NCBI GenBank assembly: GCA_900316795.1
Contig: ONEF01000008.1
Span: forward strand, 1-64,000
Direction: 5' to 3'
Source: an uncultured Bacteroidales bacterium
GTDB lineage: Bacteria; Bacteroidota; Bacteroidia; Bacteroidales; UBA932
DNA length: 64,000 bases
Shown: one piece after another, positions 1,403-6,365 of the stretch
Layout of the letters: every line of letters starts with the position of its first letter
Position numbering within the stretch: the stretch's first letter is position 1
Made by a program: the position numbers and the translations under genes
Notes under the pieces: model-generated
Told to the model about the DNA's origin: nothing
What the model saw: the letters and a program-made list of their open reading frames with translations, nothing else
Databases searched by the model: none

Positions 1403-3007
1403 ATGGATAGTCTCCTGTACATAATCCTTTCCGTTGTTTTTGCCGGCACGATGCTGATGCTGCTGGACCTGCCTTATGTCAGTGGCAGCATACTGGCTTC
1501 CGGCGCGGGGGAGAGGATTGCTGTCAGGATTCTGGTTCCGGTTCTTCTGCTTGGCGGCATTGTCCTGCCGGTTCTCTCTCCGGAGCATTTCACCCAGATG
1601 ACACAGGGGCTTATGAAGCCGGAGGCTGTCTGCAATGTGCTCCCGGTGGGGATAGCTACTGCTGTTACGGCGGTAATTATCTTGGGATTCAGCCGTTATG
1701 CTGCAGTTCCGTTCGCCTTTGTGGCGGCTGTTGCCGGAATGGGGCTTGCCTGCGGAGGCTCTCTGGCTTTTGCAGATGTGCTGCCTTATGTTTCCTCCTG
1801 GATTGCGGCTCCGCTGATTTGCGCTTTGGCGGCTGCCGGCATTTACAGCATTTTTGCTGCTACGGGGAGAAGGCGTGAGTCTCATTTTGCAGTCACGGAG
1901 GGACGTTTCCTTTCCGCGGCGACAATAGTGGCTTTCTTACTGTCCATTGCCGCGGCTGTGAACAATTCCATTGTGTTTACCTTCCTGCCTTCAGGCCTGG
2001 GGGAAAATTCAATTTGGGTGGTTGCCGGTTCGGCTCTGGCTATTCTGCCTTTCGTTTTCCGTCACGTGACCATGAGCAAATGGTACATCGCGGATTATGA
2101 ACTGGATACTAATCCACAGGCCATCATCAGCCTTATGCTTAGCATGCTGGTCAGCTTTGTCCTTTTCACCAGCCCGGCTCCGCTCCGCCTCGGGCTTGCA
2201 GCAACCCCGCTTCCGGCCGGAACGCTTTATCTGGCCGCCCTGGCTGGGATAAGCCTGCGCAGCAAACGTACCCTGGTGGACGGGCCGATTCTTCTGAAAG
2301 GAATCATATCTTCTTACATATCACCTCTTCTGGCCTTCCTCCTGGCCTTTTCTCTGGGAAGGATAATGGACGGAGAGCTGACCGGAACATTCATCGTCCT
2401 GGGTATCATAATACTGATAGCCGGGGTGATTGTCTATATGAGGGTACAGAGCCAGAGGATAATCAATCAGCAGGTAGCCAGAGCCCACGAGCAGCAGGTA
2501 TATTCCACAAGGAAATCCCTGTCAGCGCTGGAGGTCAGGGCCGAGATGACCGAGAAAGACCTTCTGAACAAGCTGGATATCAAGCGTAAGGAACTTGTAG
2601 ACTTTGCAGTTGGCATCAGCGACCAGAAAGATTTTATGGAAAGCGTGTATGAGCAGCTTAAAGAAGTCAGGGCAACCAGGGAAGGTGCGGAAAAGGATGT
2701 CAGGACAGATGCCCTCCTGCGGTCACTTCGGGAGAGAATGTACTTCACAAGGGAGATGAATGACTTCTACACCCGAAGCGAAGAGCTCCACAAGGACTTC
2801 AACGAGAGATTGGCTGAGAGTTTCCCTAAGCTTACGGAAAACGAGCGTAAGCTGGCTAACCTTCTCAGACAGGGCTTTTCCAGCAAATATATCGCATCGC
2901 TGATGAACATAACCCCTAAAAGCGTGGAAATAAACCGCTACCGCCTGAGGGCCAAGCTTGGTCTGGCGCGCAGCGAAAACCTTATAAATTTCATTAAATC
3001 AATTTAA
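1403..3007 (+). CDS. Degenerate PiT permease fused to coiled coil and LuxR-type HTH (putative membrane phosphate sensor/regulator)
   Basis: The product has 534 residues. Residues 1-150 and 168-322 are two related membrane halves of about five helices each. Their spacing matches PiT/PHO4 permeases: a TQGLMKPE segment after helix 2 (compare TIRKGIIDP) and SSWIAAPL / SSYISPLL before the last helices (compare SWVISPLL). The substrate motifs are lost: GANDVAN is replaced by LDLPYVSG (21-28) and AAVNNSIV (184-191), and PVSTTH by VPFAFV and APLRLG. A further helix (327-346) is followed by a coiled coil (about 352-470) and a LuxR/GerE-type HTH (478-521, TPKSVEINRYRLRAKLGL). The PiT assignment is by eye from motif spacing. 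Family knowledge says the HTH binds DNA. I infer a permease-derived transceptor that reads phosphate and acts on transcription at the membrane, with DUF47 as its partner. Confidence 0.7.
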   Translation: MDSLLYIILSVVFAGTMLMLLDLPYVSGSILASGAGERIAVRILVPVLLLGGIVLPVLSPEHFTQMTQGLMKPEAVCNVLPVGIATAVTAVIILGFSRYAAVPFAFVAAVAGMGLACGGSLAFADVLPYVSSWIAAPLICALAAAGIYSIFAATGRRRESHFAVTEGRFLSAATIVAFLLSIAAAVNNSIVFTFLPSGLGENSIWVVAGSALAILPFVFRHVTMSKWYIADYELDTNPQAIISLMLSMLVSFVLFTSPAPLRLGLAATPLPAGTLYLAALAGISLRSKRTLVDGPILLKGIISSYISPLLAFLLAFSLGRIMDGELTGTFIVLGIIILIAGVIVYMRVQSQRIINQQVARAHEQQVYSTRKSLSALEVRAEMTEKDLLNKLDIKRKELVDFAVGISDQKDFMESVYEQLKEVRATREGAEKDVRTDALLRSLRERMYFTREMNDFYTRSEELHKDFNERLAESFPKLTENERKLANLLRQGFSSKYIASLMNITPKSVEINRYRLRAKLGLARSENLINFIKSI

Positions 3008-3036: not shown

Positions 3037-4404
3037 ATGCGTAAAACATTATTATTACTGGCGATTTCCCTTCTGGCAGTCCAGACAGTATTCGCCCAGG
3101 AGAAAGTAAAGCGCAACCAGTACGGAGTAGCCGTTAAGTCTGACAGACTCGACGTTGAGGCTCAGGACGGTATTTTGGTTTTTGAATCTCCGACCAGCGC
3201 TTACAAACTCTGGTTTGACACCCGTATCCAGGCTGACGGAGCAGTTTTCTTCGGTCAGGACAAGGACTATGACAACATTGGAAACGGAGTAAGCATACGC
3301 CGTGCCCGTTTTGCCATCAAAGGCCAGATCAACGAAAGTTGGTATGGTGAGTTTGATATGGACCTTGCAGACGGTCTGATTGAACTCAAGGACGCTATCG
3401 TTCGTTACACAGGTGTTCCAAACCTGGATCTTCAGGTAGGTAACTTCAAGGAGAACTTCTCTTTGAACCGCAACACAACTTCCCGTTATCTGCAGTTCAT
3501 GGAAAGGCCTATGGTTACTTCCGCTCTGGCTCCTTCCCGTCATCTTGGTATCAACGCCAAGTATGCAAAGGACTGGTTCTGGGGCTCTCTGGGAGCTTTT
3601 GCCCAGGATGTTGCAGGAGCTGAGGAAATCGGCTATGTCCAGGACAACAACAAGGACTACGGCCGCAACACCGGTTACTCCATTACCGGTAAGGTTGTTT
3701 TCCGTCCTCTCTACAAGATGCATGATGCCAGTCTCCACATCGGTTTTGCCGGATCTTACCGCAGGGCTCTTACCAGCGTAGATCCTAAGGAGTATGGAGC
3801 TTACAGGGCAAGTGCACGTAACTCCACTTCCATCAACCGCAAGAAGTACCTCGACACAGACCTTCTTCCAGGTTATGACCACAACTTCCTGTGGACAGTT
3901 GAGCTTGCAGGTCACTATCAGGGACTCCGCTACGAGGCTGCCTACATCGGTGACAACGTTCATTTCAAGAAGACTGCAGCAGACCCAACCACCAAGAACT
4001 TCGGCGGATGGTATGCACAGGCTGGTTACCTTCTGTTCGGCGGAAGCCAGAACTATGACGCAAACGGCGGCAAGTACACCAAGGTTACCCGTGGCCGCAA
4101 GTGGGGTGACATCGAACTCTGCGCTCGCTACGAGTACTGTGACCTTAACTACAAGAATGTTTATGGCGGTTCAGCCGAGGCTTATACCCTGGGTCTTAAC
4201 TGGCAGGTAAACAACAACGTTAAGATAGTTCTCAACTATCAGTTCAACAACAACGACCGTTATGCAAACGGAAAGAACAAGCTGTTCGTAGGCCACGATG
4301 CAGGCGGCAACCCTACAAAGGATTACTCAAAGGTTGTCGAAGGCAAGAACAAGGCCGGTGTTGACTACCATATGATTGGACTTCGTTTTGAGATTGACTT
4401 CTAA
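3037..4404 (+). CDS. OprP/OprO-type porin (Porin_O_P family)
   Basis: The 455-residue protein has a signal peptide ending VQTVFAQ and a 16-strand-type barrel sequence. Hallmarks of Porin_O_P are visible: RIQADGAVFF, SIRRARFAIKG, the WYGEFDMDLADG turn, and a strand containing LDLQVGNFKENFSLNR. It ends in an aromatic strand with terminal Phe (MIGLRFEIDF), the usual BAM signal. In Pseudomonas the family takes up phosphate or polyphosphate. In Bacteroidota the substrates are less certain, but the position after DUF47 and the PiT-like regulator supports phosphate. The gap to the regulator gene is 29 bp, with no terminator seen. Confidence 0.85.
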   Translation: MRKTLLLLAISLLAVQTVFAQEKVKRNQYGVAVKSDRLDVEAQDGILVFESPTSAYKLWFDTRIQADGAVFFGQDKDYDNIGNGVSIRRARFAIKGQINESWYGEFDMDLADGLIELKDAIVRYTGVPNLDLQVGNFKENFSLNRNTTSRYLQFMERPMVTSALAPSRHLGINAKYAKDWFWGSLGAFAQDVAGAEEIGYVQDNNKDYGRNTGYSITGKVVFRPLYKMHDASLHIGFAGSYRRALTSVDPKEYGAYRASARNSTSINRKKYLDTDLLPGYDHNFLWTVELAGHYQGLRYEAAYIGDNVHFKKTAADPTTKNFGGWYAQAGYLLFGGSQNYDANGGKYTKVTRGRKWGDIELCARYEYCDLNYKNVYGGSAEAYTLGLNWQVNNNVKIVLNYQFNNNDRYANGKNKLFVGHDAGGNPTKDYSKVVEGKNKAGVDYHMIGLRFEIDF

Positions 4405-4418
4405 AATTGACAAAGATT

Positions 4419-5234
4419 ATGAAAAAGTTATTTATAGCAGCATTCGCGATGCTTTTCGCATTCAGTTCATGTGTTGAGGACAAGCTGTATCCTATCCCGA
4501 CCGTTTCTGAATTATCAAATACTATAGCATACGACGAGACAGAAAGCGTGACCGTTACGGCCCTCGTTTCCGCTTTGGTTCCGGTAACTGAGGTTAATCT
4601 TTTCTACAAGGCAGGCGGCGCAGCTGTGGCCAAGGTTAAGATGGAAGGACTCGGGGAGAGTTTTAAGGGAGTCATCCCTGCTCAGCCGATGGGTACCGAG
4701 GTAAAGTACTATGTTGAGGCATCAACTGATGGTGGTTCAGTTACTTCCAAGGAGGCTTCATACACCGTGGGAGTTATTCCTATTGACTTTACCCCTCTGA
4801 AGCTCAACGAACTCAACGGAAACGACAAGTTTATCGAGATTATCAACACAGGCAGTGCTCCAATCAATATCAAGGGAATCAAGATATTGAAGGATACCAA
4901 GGATGTATGGACCGGTCCTAACCGCGACCTTGCTCCTGGCGCATTCCTGCTCCTTTACAGCGAGGATGTTGTTGTTGCCGGTGGCCCTCAGGAAGGCTAT
5001 GATCCTGACCTGGTATTCACTTCAGGTCTTTCTGCAAAGAAGGCCGTTAGGGTACAGCTCAACGACCCTGTAGGTAACAGTCTTGACGATTTCAACCTGG
5101 TAACCGTATCAAAGACCGCTCCTGCATCTTACAGCCGTGTTCCAGACGGAACAGGAAAGTGGTTCTACACTCCAGCAACTCCAGGCGCAAAGAACTCTAC
5201 AGATAACTCCGATCCTGTAACCGGACTTATGTAA
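4419..5234 (+). CDS. Lipoprotein with lamin-tail (LTD) domain
   Basis: I chose the ATG at 4419 because it gives a clean lipoprotein leader (MKKLFIAAFAMLFAFSSC, lipidated Cys18); an upstream TTG is unlikely. The mature protein is 253 residues. Residues about 30-125 form a beta-sandwich-like segment (EVNLFYKAGGAAV, EVKYYVEASTDGG). Residues about 128-260 form an LTD: LKLNELNGNDKFIEIINTG, LAPGAFLLLYSED, SYSRVPDGTGKWFYT and ATPGAKN are typical. LTDs in bacterial surface proteins are thought to mediate binding or anchoring. It sits 14 bp after the porin and is probably co-transcribed. I infer a surface or periplasmic partner of the porin; no enzymatic motif is visible. Confidence 0.78.
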   Translation: MKKLFIAAFAMLFAFSSCVEDKLYPIPTVSELSNTIAYDETESVTVTALVSALVPVTEVNLFYKAGGAAVAKVKMEGLGESFKGVIPAQPMGTEVKYYVEASTDGGSVTSKEASYTVGVIPIDFTPLKLNELNGNDKFIEIINTGSAPINIKGIKILKDTKDVWTGPNRDLAPGAFLLLYSEDVVVAGGPQEGYDPDLVFTSGLSAKKAVRVQLNDPVGNSLDDFNLVTVSKTAPASYSRVPDGTGKWFYTPATPGAKNSTDNSDPVTGLM

Positions 5235-5253: not shown

Positions 5254-5892
5254 ATGGCAGAATTAAAAATCGGTGAAATAAGCAAGCCTAGGTTTGAATT
5301 CCGAAGCTTCGGCCAGTGCTTCTGTGAAGCCCACAAGAGAATGGCCCGTCTTTCCGTTCCGGTTCCGGAGAAGGTTTGGGAAAGGCAGAGCGACGAGATA
5401 TACATCATCTCAGCAAAGAACGACATCAACAACACCAAGATCCGTGACAGCAAGATGGACATCAAGACATTTGTCCAGAGCGTTGACGGTCTGGAGCAGT
5501 GGAACCCTCTGATGAAGGGCGAATTCCCTATCAGCCGCGAGGTTCTGGAGAAGGAAGTCTTCCCTGCATTCATGGTTGAGATGCCTGCCCTTACAAAGGA
5601 CACCTACACTTATGAGGAGTTCATCGCTATGGTAAAGGCCAATCCTGACCTTGCCGCCGTGAGGGTTCACAAGCAGAGATTCGGTTATATGGTCAACAAT
5701 ACCATCTGCGAGGTCGGCAATGTTCTGATCAACGGGGCAAAGGTTGTTACCATCAACTCAGAGTCCACTGAGATAGAGGATATCAAGAAGACCATCAAGG
5801 ACGTGGGTCTTGAGGGTGTTGAGAACATCAACTACCTCCAGGCTATCAAGAGAGTTATCGGGATGAGTGACAAACCATTAGCAAACGAATAG
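5254..5892 (+). CDS. Uncharacterised CYTH-like protein
   Basis: The 212-residue protein is cytoplasmic, with no signal peptide or membrane helix. I do not recognise a named family with certainty. The pattern suggests a CYTH/triphosphate-tunnel relative. There is an N-terminal strand FEFRSFG, a strand pair with spaced basic residues (NNTKIRDSKMDIKTFV), then RVHKQRFGYMVNNTICEVGNV followed by INSESTEIED with acidic residues suited to metal binding. It ends just before a clear CYTH gene (2-nt gap), so the two may work together. The function is unknown. Triphosphate or polyphosphate handling is an inference from the fold-like pattern and the neighbours. A structure prediction would settle the fold. 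Confidence 0.5.
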   Translation: MAELKIGEISKPRFEFRSFGQCFCEAHKRMARLSVPVPEKVWERQSDEIYIISAKNDINNTKIRDSKMDIKTFVQSVDGLEQWNPLMKGEFPISREVLEKEVFPAFMVEMPALTKDTYTYEEFIAMVKANPDLAAVRVHKQRFGYMVNNTICEVGNVLINGAKVVTINSESTEIEDIKKTIKDVGLEGVENINYLQAIKRVIGMSDKPLANE

Positions 5893-5894
5893 TT

Positions 5895-6365
5895 ATGGGA
5901 CAGGAAATAGAACGCAAATTCTTGGTCAAGGGCGACTTCAAGGAAGCCGCCTTCAAGGCCACCCGCATTACCCAGGGTTATCTCAGCAGCGTGCCTGAGA
6001 GAACCGTAAGGGTAAGGGTCAAGGGGGACAAGGGCTTCATCACCATCAAGGGCATAGGTTCCGACAGCGGAGCCAGCCGTTTCGAGTGGGAGAAGGAAAT
6101 CCCTGTTCCTGAGGTTCAGGACCTTCTCAAGATCTGTGAGCCTGGCGTCATCGACAAGACCCGCTATCTGGTAAAGGTTGGCGAACATACCTTTGAAGTG
6201 GACGAGTTCTATGGCGACAACGAAGGCCTTACAGTTGCTGAAGTTGAGCTTGGAAGCGAGAACGAGGCTTTTGACAAGCCGGCTTGGCTGGGTGAAGAAG
6301 TCACCGGAGACGTCAAGTACTACAACTCCATGTTGATGAAGAATCCGTACAAGAACTGGAAGTGA
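5895..6365 (+). CDS. CYTH-domain triphosphate tunnel metalloenzyme
   Basis: The 156-residue single-domain protein opens with the CYTH signature EIERKFLV (acidic Glu4 and Glu6, basic Lys8). It continues through ITQGYLS, RTVRVRVKGDKGFITIKG, FEWEKEIP, IDKTRYLVKVGEHTFEVDEF and VAEVELGSE. These are the alternating acidic and basic strand residues that line the tunnel and bind Mg/Mn and triphosphate. Single-domain bacterial CYTH proteins of this length (Clostridium type) hydrolyse tripolyphosphate or nucleoside triphosphates. Its stop overlaps the next start by one base (TGATG at 6363-6367), so translation is coupled to the DASS permease. I infer a polyphosphate role in the phosphate operon. Confidence 0.88.
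   Translation: MGQEIERKFLVKGDFKEAAFKATRITQGYLSSVPERTVRVRVKGDKGFITIKGIGSDSGASRFEWEKEIPVPEVQDLLKICEPGVIDKTRYLVKVGEHTFEVDEFYGDNEGLTVAEVELGSENEAFDKPAWLGEEVTGDVKYYNSMLMKNPYKNWK

Follow-up and report, generated by a model that had tools for sequence, protein, structure and literature searches.

What has become of the phosphate permease at a locus where a DUF47 gene is followed by something other than a recognizable PiT protein? The window, by which we mean the whole 64,000-nucleotide stretch analysed, comes from an uncultured Bacteroidales bacterium (draft assembly GCA_900316795.1, here G000; 2.32 Mb, 92.75% complete) and carries an ORF for a 534-aa protein (1403–3007, + strand) that begins on the base right after the stop codon of a DUF47/PhoU_div gene (743–1402, +; PF01865, E 3.6e-6). 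A phosphate-selective porin O/P family gene (Porin_O_P; 3037–4404, +; Pfam E 9.6e-43) lies 29 bp 3' of it and is a probable member of the same operon. A sequence-only reading had taken this protein, in the usual PiT position, for a dead permease joined to a LuxR-type helix-turn-helix (HTH) that senses phosphate and acts on DNA at the membrane; the position is borne out by the PF01865 gene, which ends at the base before the ORF. An assembly artefact is ruled out by an ORF that is open in many assemblies and by purifying selection. Our preferred reading, to which we assign a probability of about 0.72, is that the gene encodes a membrane-tethered autoregulatory one-component phosphate sensor, derived from a PiT permease, that would regulate its own DUF47-porin operon.

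PiT ancestry of the membrane half

Searched by itself, the window protein has GerE as its sole Pfam match over cut-off; it does not reach the PF01384 (PHO4) gathering score and yields no PHO4 match up to E 10, so that its PiT homology needs relatives to show. PHO4 matches at E <= 0.01 were found in 13 of 28 alignment members (best 1.8e-11), the window protein not among them. When membrane domains were compared as profiles (HH comparison, for which pairwise E-values are not database E-values), the window clade (29 rows) matched intact PiT permeases (19 rows) at 98.7% over 314 columns, the intermediates L006–L010 (loci are denoted L, genomes G) matched intact PiT at 99.7% and the window clade matched the intermediates at 99.9%, against 0.1% for the controls (reversed PiT, DASS and a single MgtC sequence). 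A membrane profile of the window clade without intact members found TmPiT, the Thermotoga PiT transporter of solved structure (6L85), as the only PDB sequence at E <= 1 (E 1.9e-4), and the full-length window-clade profile found it at E 7.1e-5. An AF2 model of the membrane domain, built from the same rows as the profile (pTM 0.85), matched only the two chains of 6L85 at E <= 0.001 in a fold search (prob 1.00; TMq 0.67 and 0.63) and had no match at E <= 0.001 in a viral fold library.

Profile comparison and superposition (TM-score 0.67 to 6L85, with no competing fold) both bear out the PiT-like membrane repeats of the earlier reading, and support the prediction that the N-terminal 350 residues (1403–2452, +) form a degenerate, PHO4-like membrane domain of the PiT fold. 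An unrelated 7TM-type sensor is ruled out by the HH comparison, the PDB profile and the fold search. By far the weakest alternative, that an unrelated membrane protein replaced the PiT gene at this locus by chance, could appeal to the missing PHO4 match of the window sequence alone and to a BLASTP identity of 25% with an intact fusion (E 2e-42 over 57–534, tail included), but is refuted by the concurrence of HH comparison, PDB profile, fold search and the relatives' direct PHO4 matches.

The helix list of the model reads as five helices per half plus an eleventh, predicted to be an extra transmembrane helix (residues 326–349; 2378–2449, +), ahead of the coiled coil. From there, long helices (H326–424 and H429–473) run through residues 350–473 (2450–2821, +), presumably as a linker of the coiled-coil type, to a GerE/LuxR-type HTH at residues 476–527 (2828–2983, +; PF00196, E 6.8e-7; 29.3 bits, cut-off 23.5), which is matched in 28 of 28 alignment members. 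The C-terminal LuxR-type HTH proposed earlier is thus present over cut-off; the proposed run of the membrane repeats into a coiled coil stands as regards the long helices but not as a direct continuation, the predicted extra helix intervening. With this helix, the C-terminus would come to lie in the cytoplasm, and K/R sums average ~13.3 in the presumed cytoplasmic loops versus ~2.1 in the periplasmic ones, so that we infer a cytoplasmic HTH on which model and K/R counts agree.

Distribution and history of the fusion

The fusion is real: proteins over both the PHO4 and the GerE cut-offs stand at the same locus in other genomes. L001–L012 and L013 all occupy this locus, with DUF47 before and the porin after; L001–L010 have the degenerate permease half, and L011 and L012 are intact permeases with the same LuxR tail (PHO4 E 2.9e-54 and 3.8e-55, GerE 3e-9 and 2.4e-10, respectively). 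Among the intermediates, L006 (36.4 bits) and L009 (42.7 bits) exceed the PHO4 cut-off of 33.7 and also that of GerE, and L010, at 26.7, falls under the former. G111 and G012, which encode intact fusions, also encode an unfused canonical PiT.

Because the wide genome searches score few candidates per genome, their counts are lower bounds: within the family, a match at E <= 0.001 occurs in at least 65 of the 149 genomes, often via the tail alone; at least 18 of 344 genomes of the order had one across nearly all 583 residues (L062–L079); and at least 12 of 395 genomes from across the phylum had a match at E <= 1e-40, none extending past residue 350 and all thus confined to the permease. In one of the order loci, L066, the fusion ORF has an in-frame stop (TAA), and it was excluded from protein sets; two more loci, L080 and L082, encode PHO4 and GerE in a single ORF whose linker before the extra helix is longer. 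DUF47 lies upstream in 20 of 20 of these order loci (L062–L079, L080 and L082) and in every listed same-locus relative whose flank extends that far. The porin lies downstream in 17 of the 20, the others being L062 (contig end), L080 (flank of 650 bases) and L075 (a CYTH gene instead). The search for the fusion in other genomes that the sequence-only reading had suggested was therefore successful (L011, L012, the 18 order genomes, L080 and L082). The 31 named loci at which a relative occurs all belong to MAGs of Bacteroidales or Bacteroidia, and in 28 of them a word match on record titles found the rumen, a different fore-stomach compartment, a set of rumen genomes or reindeer. Eleven plasmid records had partial matches, 0 of them covering 80%, and a search of the open-access literature by PMC titles and abstract openings, with subscription papers outside its scope, found no PiT-LuxR fusion.

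Several other arrangements were seen in the same searches. Many family genomes have a canonical short PiT beside its own DUF47 (L092–L111; PF01865 in 5 of 5 neighbours tested), and the unfused PiT of other Bacteroidota can have a similar-looking C-terminal extension of ~150 residues that is not HTH-like (L137 and L139–L146). L081 and L083, in which a PiT is followed by one helix and a shortened tail, have no CTACA upstream and are possibly broken fusions; an in-frame TGA is reported for L081. Three frames of 154–170 aa (G087:C8, G141:C33 and G046:C5) weakly match window residues 133–227 (E 3.6e-5 to 7.1e-4). At L013 (928–1908), a DUF47 domain with masked bases within it runs directly into the LuxR HTH at the same locus, giving 327 aa without a membrane domain; it could represent a soluble end form or stem from the assembly.

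The order of events was read from a tree of the tail, i.e. the last 175–185 residues, with the membrane domain excluded. All 26 degenerate rows, L013 included, form one group (99/97), nested in a 32-row group (96/87) that holds six intact fusions and is itself nested in 44 fusion rows (94/92), in a tree whose root is not clean, 2 of 12 outgroup rows falling on the wrong side. This nesting of the degenerate clade within intact fusions shows, at the level of the tail sequences, that the fusion came first and the signature losses later. As far as sampled, the fusion would have arisen in an ancestor within Bacteroidales, where the same helix-coiled-coil-LuxR output module also stands behind TPR domains. 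The fusions L077, L080 and L082 lie apart from the main fusion group, separated from it by two TPR proteins on a weak branch (81/58), so that the tail may have been acquired or swapped on more than one occasion. L076 (GAQGASN) and L078 (GSKDTVN) have motif changes yet still score as PHO4, and look like separate partial losses. We give about even odds to reading the PiT-LuxR family as a series, from an intact carrier that also binds DNA, through partly decayed forms (L076, L078) and a transport-dead sensor (the window protein), to a membrane-less form (L013); the intact forms would then carry phosphate and bind DNA, the state of uptake being read directly at the promoter.

Signature residues of the former pocket

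Aligned with intact homologues, the window protein has MLLDLPY and AVNNSIV in the columns of the GANDVANA-type signatures and YAAVPF and PLPAGT in those of the PVSTTH-type loops, with neither signature and neither loop present, and the Ser of both PVSS/T motifs is replaced by Ala/Pro/Ala. The claimed loss of the substrate motifs therefore holds on this alignment but is incomplete, as D22 (the GAND acid), N187 and N188 (second signature), W133 and P269 (second PVSS) remain. Across 34 degenerate rows, which are related and so overstate independence, and in which L003 and L038 are the same contig counted twice, the GAND acid is kept as D or E in 34 and the first Asn of GANN in the second signature likewise in 34, followed by the SW Trp (33), the Pro of the second PVSS (32) and the second Asn (25). 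S97 is kept in 9 of the 34 and S285 in 11, and lost in every row are four first-signature residues (the Gly, the first Ala and the two Asn), the final Asn of the second signature, S286 (0/34) and Gln 100. These counts leave out L013, L056 and L061 as well as the near-copies L002, L032, L033, L037 and L040.

Within the window clade, conservation is higher in the former pocket columns than elsewhere in the membrane domain (permutation p 0.009; three columns in the analysis are invariant, with entropy 0), and the pocket follows its own consensus (DLPxxxG, AVPFAF and TPLPAG). Membrane-half dN/dS (Nei-Gojobori) is 0.07–0.21 in pairs with the window, where dS is saturated in distant pairs and sound only for L031–L034 with the window and L038/L039. 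Judged from these alignments, the former pocket is re-specified under selection and not in decay.

This conservation is what tells against the best of the alternatives, itself unlikely, in which the membrane domain is only an anchor or scaffold, the signal comes from the cytoplasmic, PhoU-like DUF47 protein and the permease half itself binds no ligand. Such a division of labour draws support from the DUF47 gene that adjoins the fusion and shows higher conservation than the membrane domain does (85% versus 55% in L037), and from L013, where DUF47 is joined to the HTH without a membrane domain; it does not, however, sit well with pocket columns that exceed the rest in conservation and follow a consensus of their own.

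We are more doubtful still of a working transporter whose substrate is phosphate or some other anion and whose regulatory tail would combine uptake and regulation in one chain. The fold is retained and under purifying selection, the GAND acid and the first Asn of the second signature are never lost and the second Asn is mostly kept, and the draft genome (92.75% complete) provisionally has no PHO4, PstC or PstB over cut-off, the PstB search returning general ABC matches only (best 148.7 bits, cut-off 343.2). The serines argue the other way, being Ala/Pro/Ala in the window protein and kept in few or none of the degenerate rows, and phosphate can be supplied by the two Na/Pi cotransporters that the same genome encodes. 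In human PiT2, the serines S113 and S593 are critical and the D506 position matters (PMC3126765); the match of S113 and S593 to the PVSS/T Ser columns is our own reading. The 'intact' DUF47-linked permeases themselves have GANN where GAND stands elsewhere, and since this is the position important in PiT2 (D506), transport by them is only putative. For the window protein we retain the sensor reading, in which the permease half is likely transport-dead.

Upstream repeats and the proposed sensor

Ahead of DUF47, the window has an array of CTACA copies that is a candidate operator (609–680; copies at 610, 632 and 675 on the + strand and at 644 and 659 on the − strand), and then a promoter-like element, TATATTTG (707–714, +), which lies 33 bp downstream of the last TCTACA, counted from start to start, and which, like its general form TAnnTTT[G/A], we take to be an element of the promoter -7 type. 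This is the only 220-bp stretch of the 64-kb window with at least 4 CTACA. No 5-mer is more enriched than CTACA in the 220 bp preceding DUF47 (100 copies versus 12.8 in a thinned set of 41 loci). The 56 HTH-fused loci, among which L002/L033 and L003/L038 are pairs from the same contigs, have 165 CTACA on both strands (mean 23.5 and maximum 35 in 200 shuffles), with at least one copy in 54 loci and at least two in 49. Enrichment is seen in the window clade (100 in 30 loci, 14.2 expected, L003 and L038 being counted twice), the intermediates (7 in 4 loci, 1.5 expected) and the intact fusions (47 in 19 loci, 7.7 expected). Unfused DUF47-PiT operons are at chance level (9 in 37 loci, 9.3 expected), both overall and by subset (5 in 18, 3 in 12 and 1 in 7 loci, with 5.0, 3.0 and 1.3 expected), as are two control regions of the same locus, those preceding the porin gene (10 in 29, 8.0 expected) and DASS (6 in 23, 6.7 expected). 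The upstream counts are without L010–L012, L044 and L074, with L013 removed and the upstream region of L066 counted; the nine unfused loci in the companion set of the 56-locus count include L081 and L083 with their apparently shortened tails, and among ten unfused controls tested for the gene before PiT, 9 had DUF47 by Pfam and L145 had no match.

The copies are phased, with spacing peaks at 11, 22, 43 and 54–55 bp, and in 25 of 33 window-clade loci YCTACA starts 33 bp before TAnnTTT[G/A]. Other distances are 34 (L052), 43 and 54 (L057), 54 (L054 and L055), 55 (L005 and L058) and 20 bp (L060); L004 has no TAnnTTT[G/A] element, CTACA without YCTACA is seen in L007 and L009 and neither motif in L008 and L075, and the distance is not conserved among intact fusions. 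PhoB sites are likewise built of similar direct repeats about 11 bp apart, which counts for an alternative in which PhoB binds the array as its Pho box and the fusion protein has another target. We hold this to be about as doubtful as the working transporter: the unfused DUF47-PiT operons, which are likelier PhoB targets, do not exceed chance, and it is in the HTH-fused operons that the motif is present.

Scanning the genome for YCTACA with the promoter element gave 2 occurrences, one of them here, versus 5 for the backward control, and the 11-bp CTCTACA pair occurred 17 times versus 17, i.e. without excess in either case; neither Na/Pi cotransporter gene of this genome has CTACA in the 220 bp upstream. 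No wider phosphate regulon is therefore seen, and, given that the combined pattern has no genome-wide excess, the regulatory target may be this operon alone. At L113, two CTACA lie ~700 bp upstream of a Na/Pi cotransporter, inside another ORF.

We propose that the fused permease half, most of its transport signatures lost, is now probably a membrane sensor acting directly on its own operon, phosphate sensing and action on DNA being suggested by gene context and by the HTH-associated upstream repeats. A PiT gene behind its DUF47 partner became fused to a helix-coiled-coil-LuxR output module, and in the window lineage the permease half then shed most substrate-signature residues, keeping the fold and some pocket residues under purifying selection; it would no longer move phosphate in bulk. 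It may instead bind phosphate, the ligand suggested by the neighbouring genes, or a related oxyanion, or read the state of DUF47, which could assist the re-specified permease half in sensing. A dimeric HTH would receive the signal via the extra helix and the coiled coil, bind the phased CTACA repeats just upstream of the operon and regulate DUF47, its own gene and the outer-membrane porin. Activation seems the more likely mode because of the fixed phase of CTACA to the promoter-like element in the window clade, and the main output would be the outer-membrane phosphate-type porin.

Compared with PiT/PHO4 permeases (PF01384; TmPiT 6L85), the window protein shares the fold, the DUF47 partner gene and part of the signature residues, but has an extra helix, a coiled coil and an HTH and has lost most of the signature. 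With its relatives, it combines a transporter-derived domain and an output domain in one chain. In CbrA-type SLC5 transporter-kinase fusions a transporter domain is likewise the sensor, with a kinase as output and a fold other than PiT. Membrane-bound one-component regulators of the CadC/ToxR/BcrR type have a DNA-binding domain tethered to the membrane, as proposed here; to our knowledge, none has a transporter-derived sensor. Similar C-terminal tails occur in Bacteroidales TPR-LuxR proteins (L018 and L023, GerE over cut-off) and in the Reg_prop/Y_Y_Y proteins L014 and L019 (GerE below cut-off in L019, no match in L014), whose sensors are TPR and propeller domains, respectively, and not transporters. 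By analogy, the nearest working parallel is Ks-Amt5, an ammonium transporter fold fused to a histidine kinase, which binds the ion without moving it and drives the kinase (PMC5764959). In Ks-Amt5 a nutrient transporter fold gave up transport to serve as the sensor of a fused output, and the window protein probably did likewise; the fold of Ks-Amt5 is that of Amt and its kinase depends on a response regulator, whereas here a PiT fold and a DNA-binding domain share one chain. Mammalian PiT1 and PiT2 are possible phosphate transceptors, proposed to signal without transport, and signal to ERK1/2, with no fused DNA-binding domain (PMC7033257), in contrast to the HTH fusion seen here. Conversion of a transporter to a sensor is thus already known from kinase fusions such as Ks-Amt5; here a transporter fold is linked straight to a DNA-binding domain. 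Living relatives preserve steps before and after the signature loss, so that the change from permease to receptor can be traced protein by protein, and the locus points to a route of phosphate control in a bacterium whose draft genome shows no PiT and no Pst system.

Beyond the porin, the window continues with a Lamin-tail-domain (LTD) protein gene (4407–5234, +; PF00932, E 1.6e-9), its product with a lipoprotein-like N-terminus as judged by eye, a gene for a 212-aa protein without a Pfam match at E <= 0.001 (5254–5892), a CYTH-domain gene (5895–6365), a Na:sulfate-type symporter gene and then MgtC. The region upstream of the 212-aa gene also has an excess of CTACA, with 23 in 29 loci (10.1 expected, largest shuffle 17), which counts against the proposed reading. 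Where fully aligned, the 212-aa protein is 92–99% identical, the sensor gene of the same relatives only 41–98%. In several lineages (the window, L075, L085, L086, L089 and L090) a CYTH gene adjoins a DUF47-PiT locus or lies close to it, which perhaps links this neighbourhood to polyphosphate metabolism.
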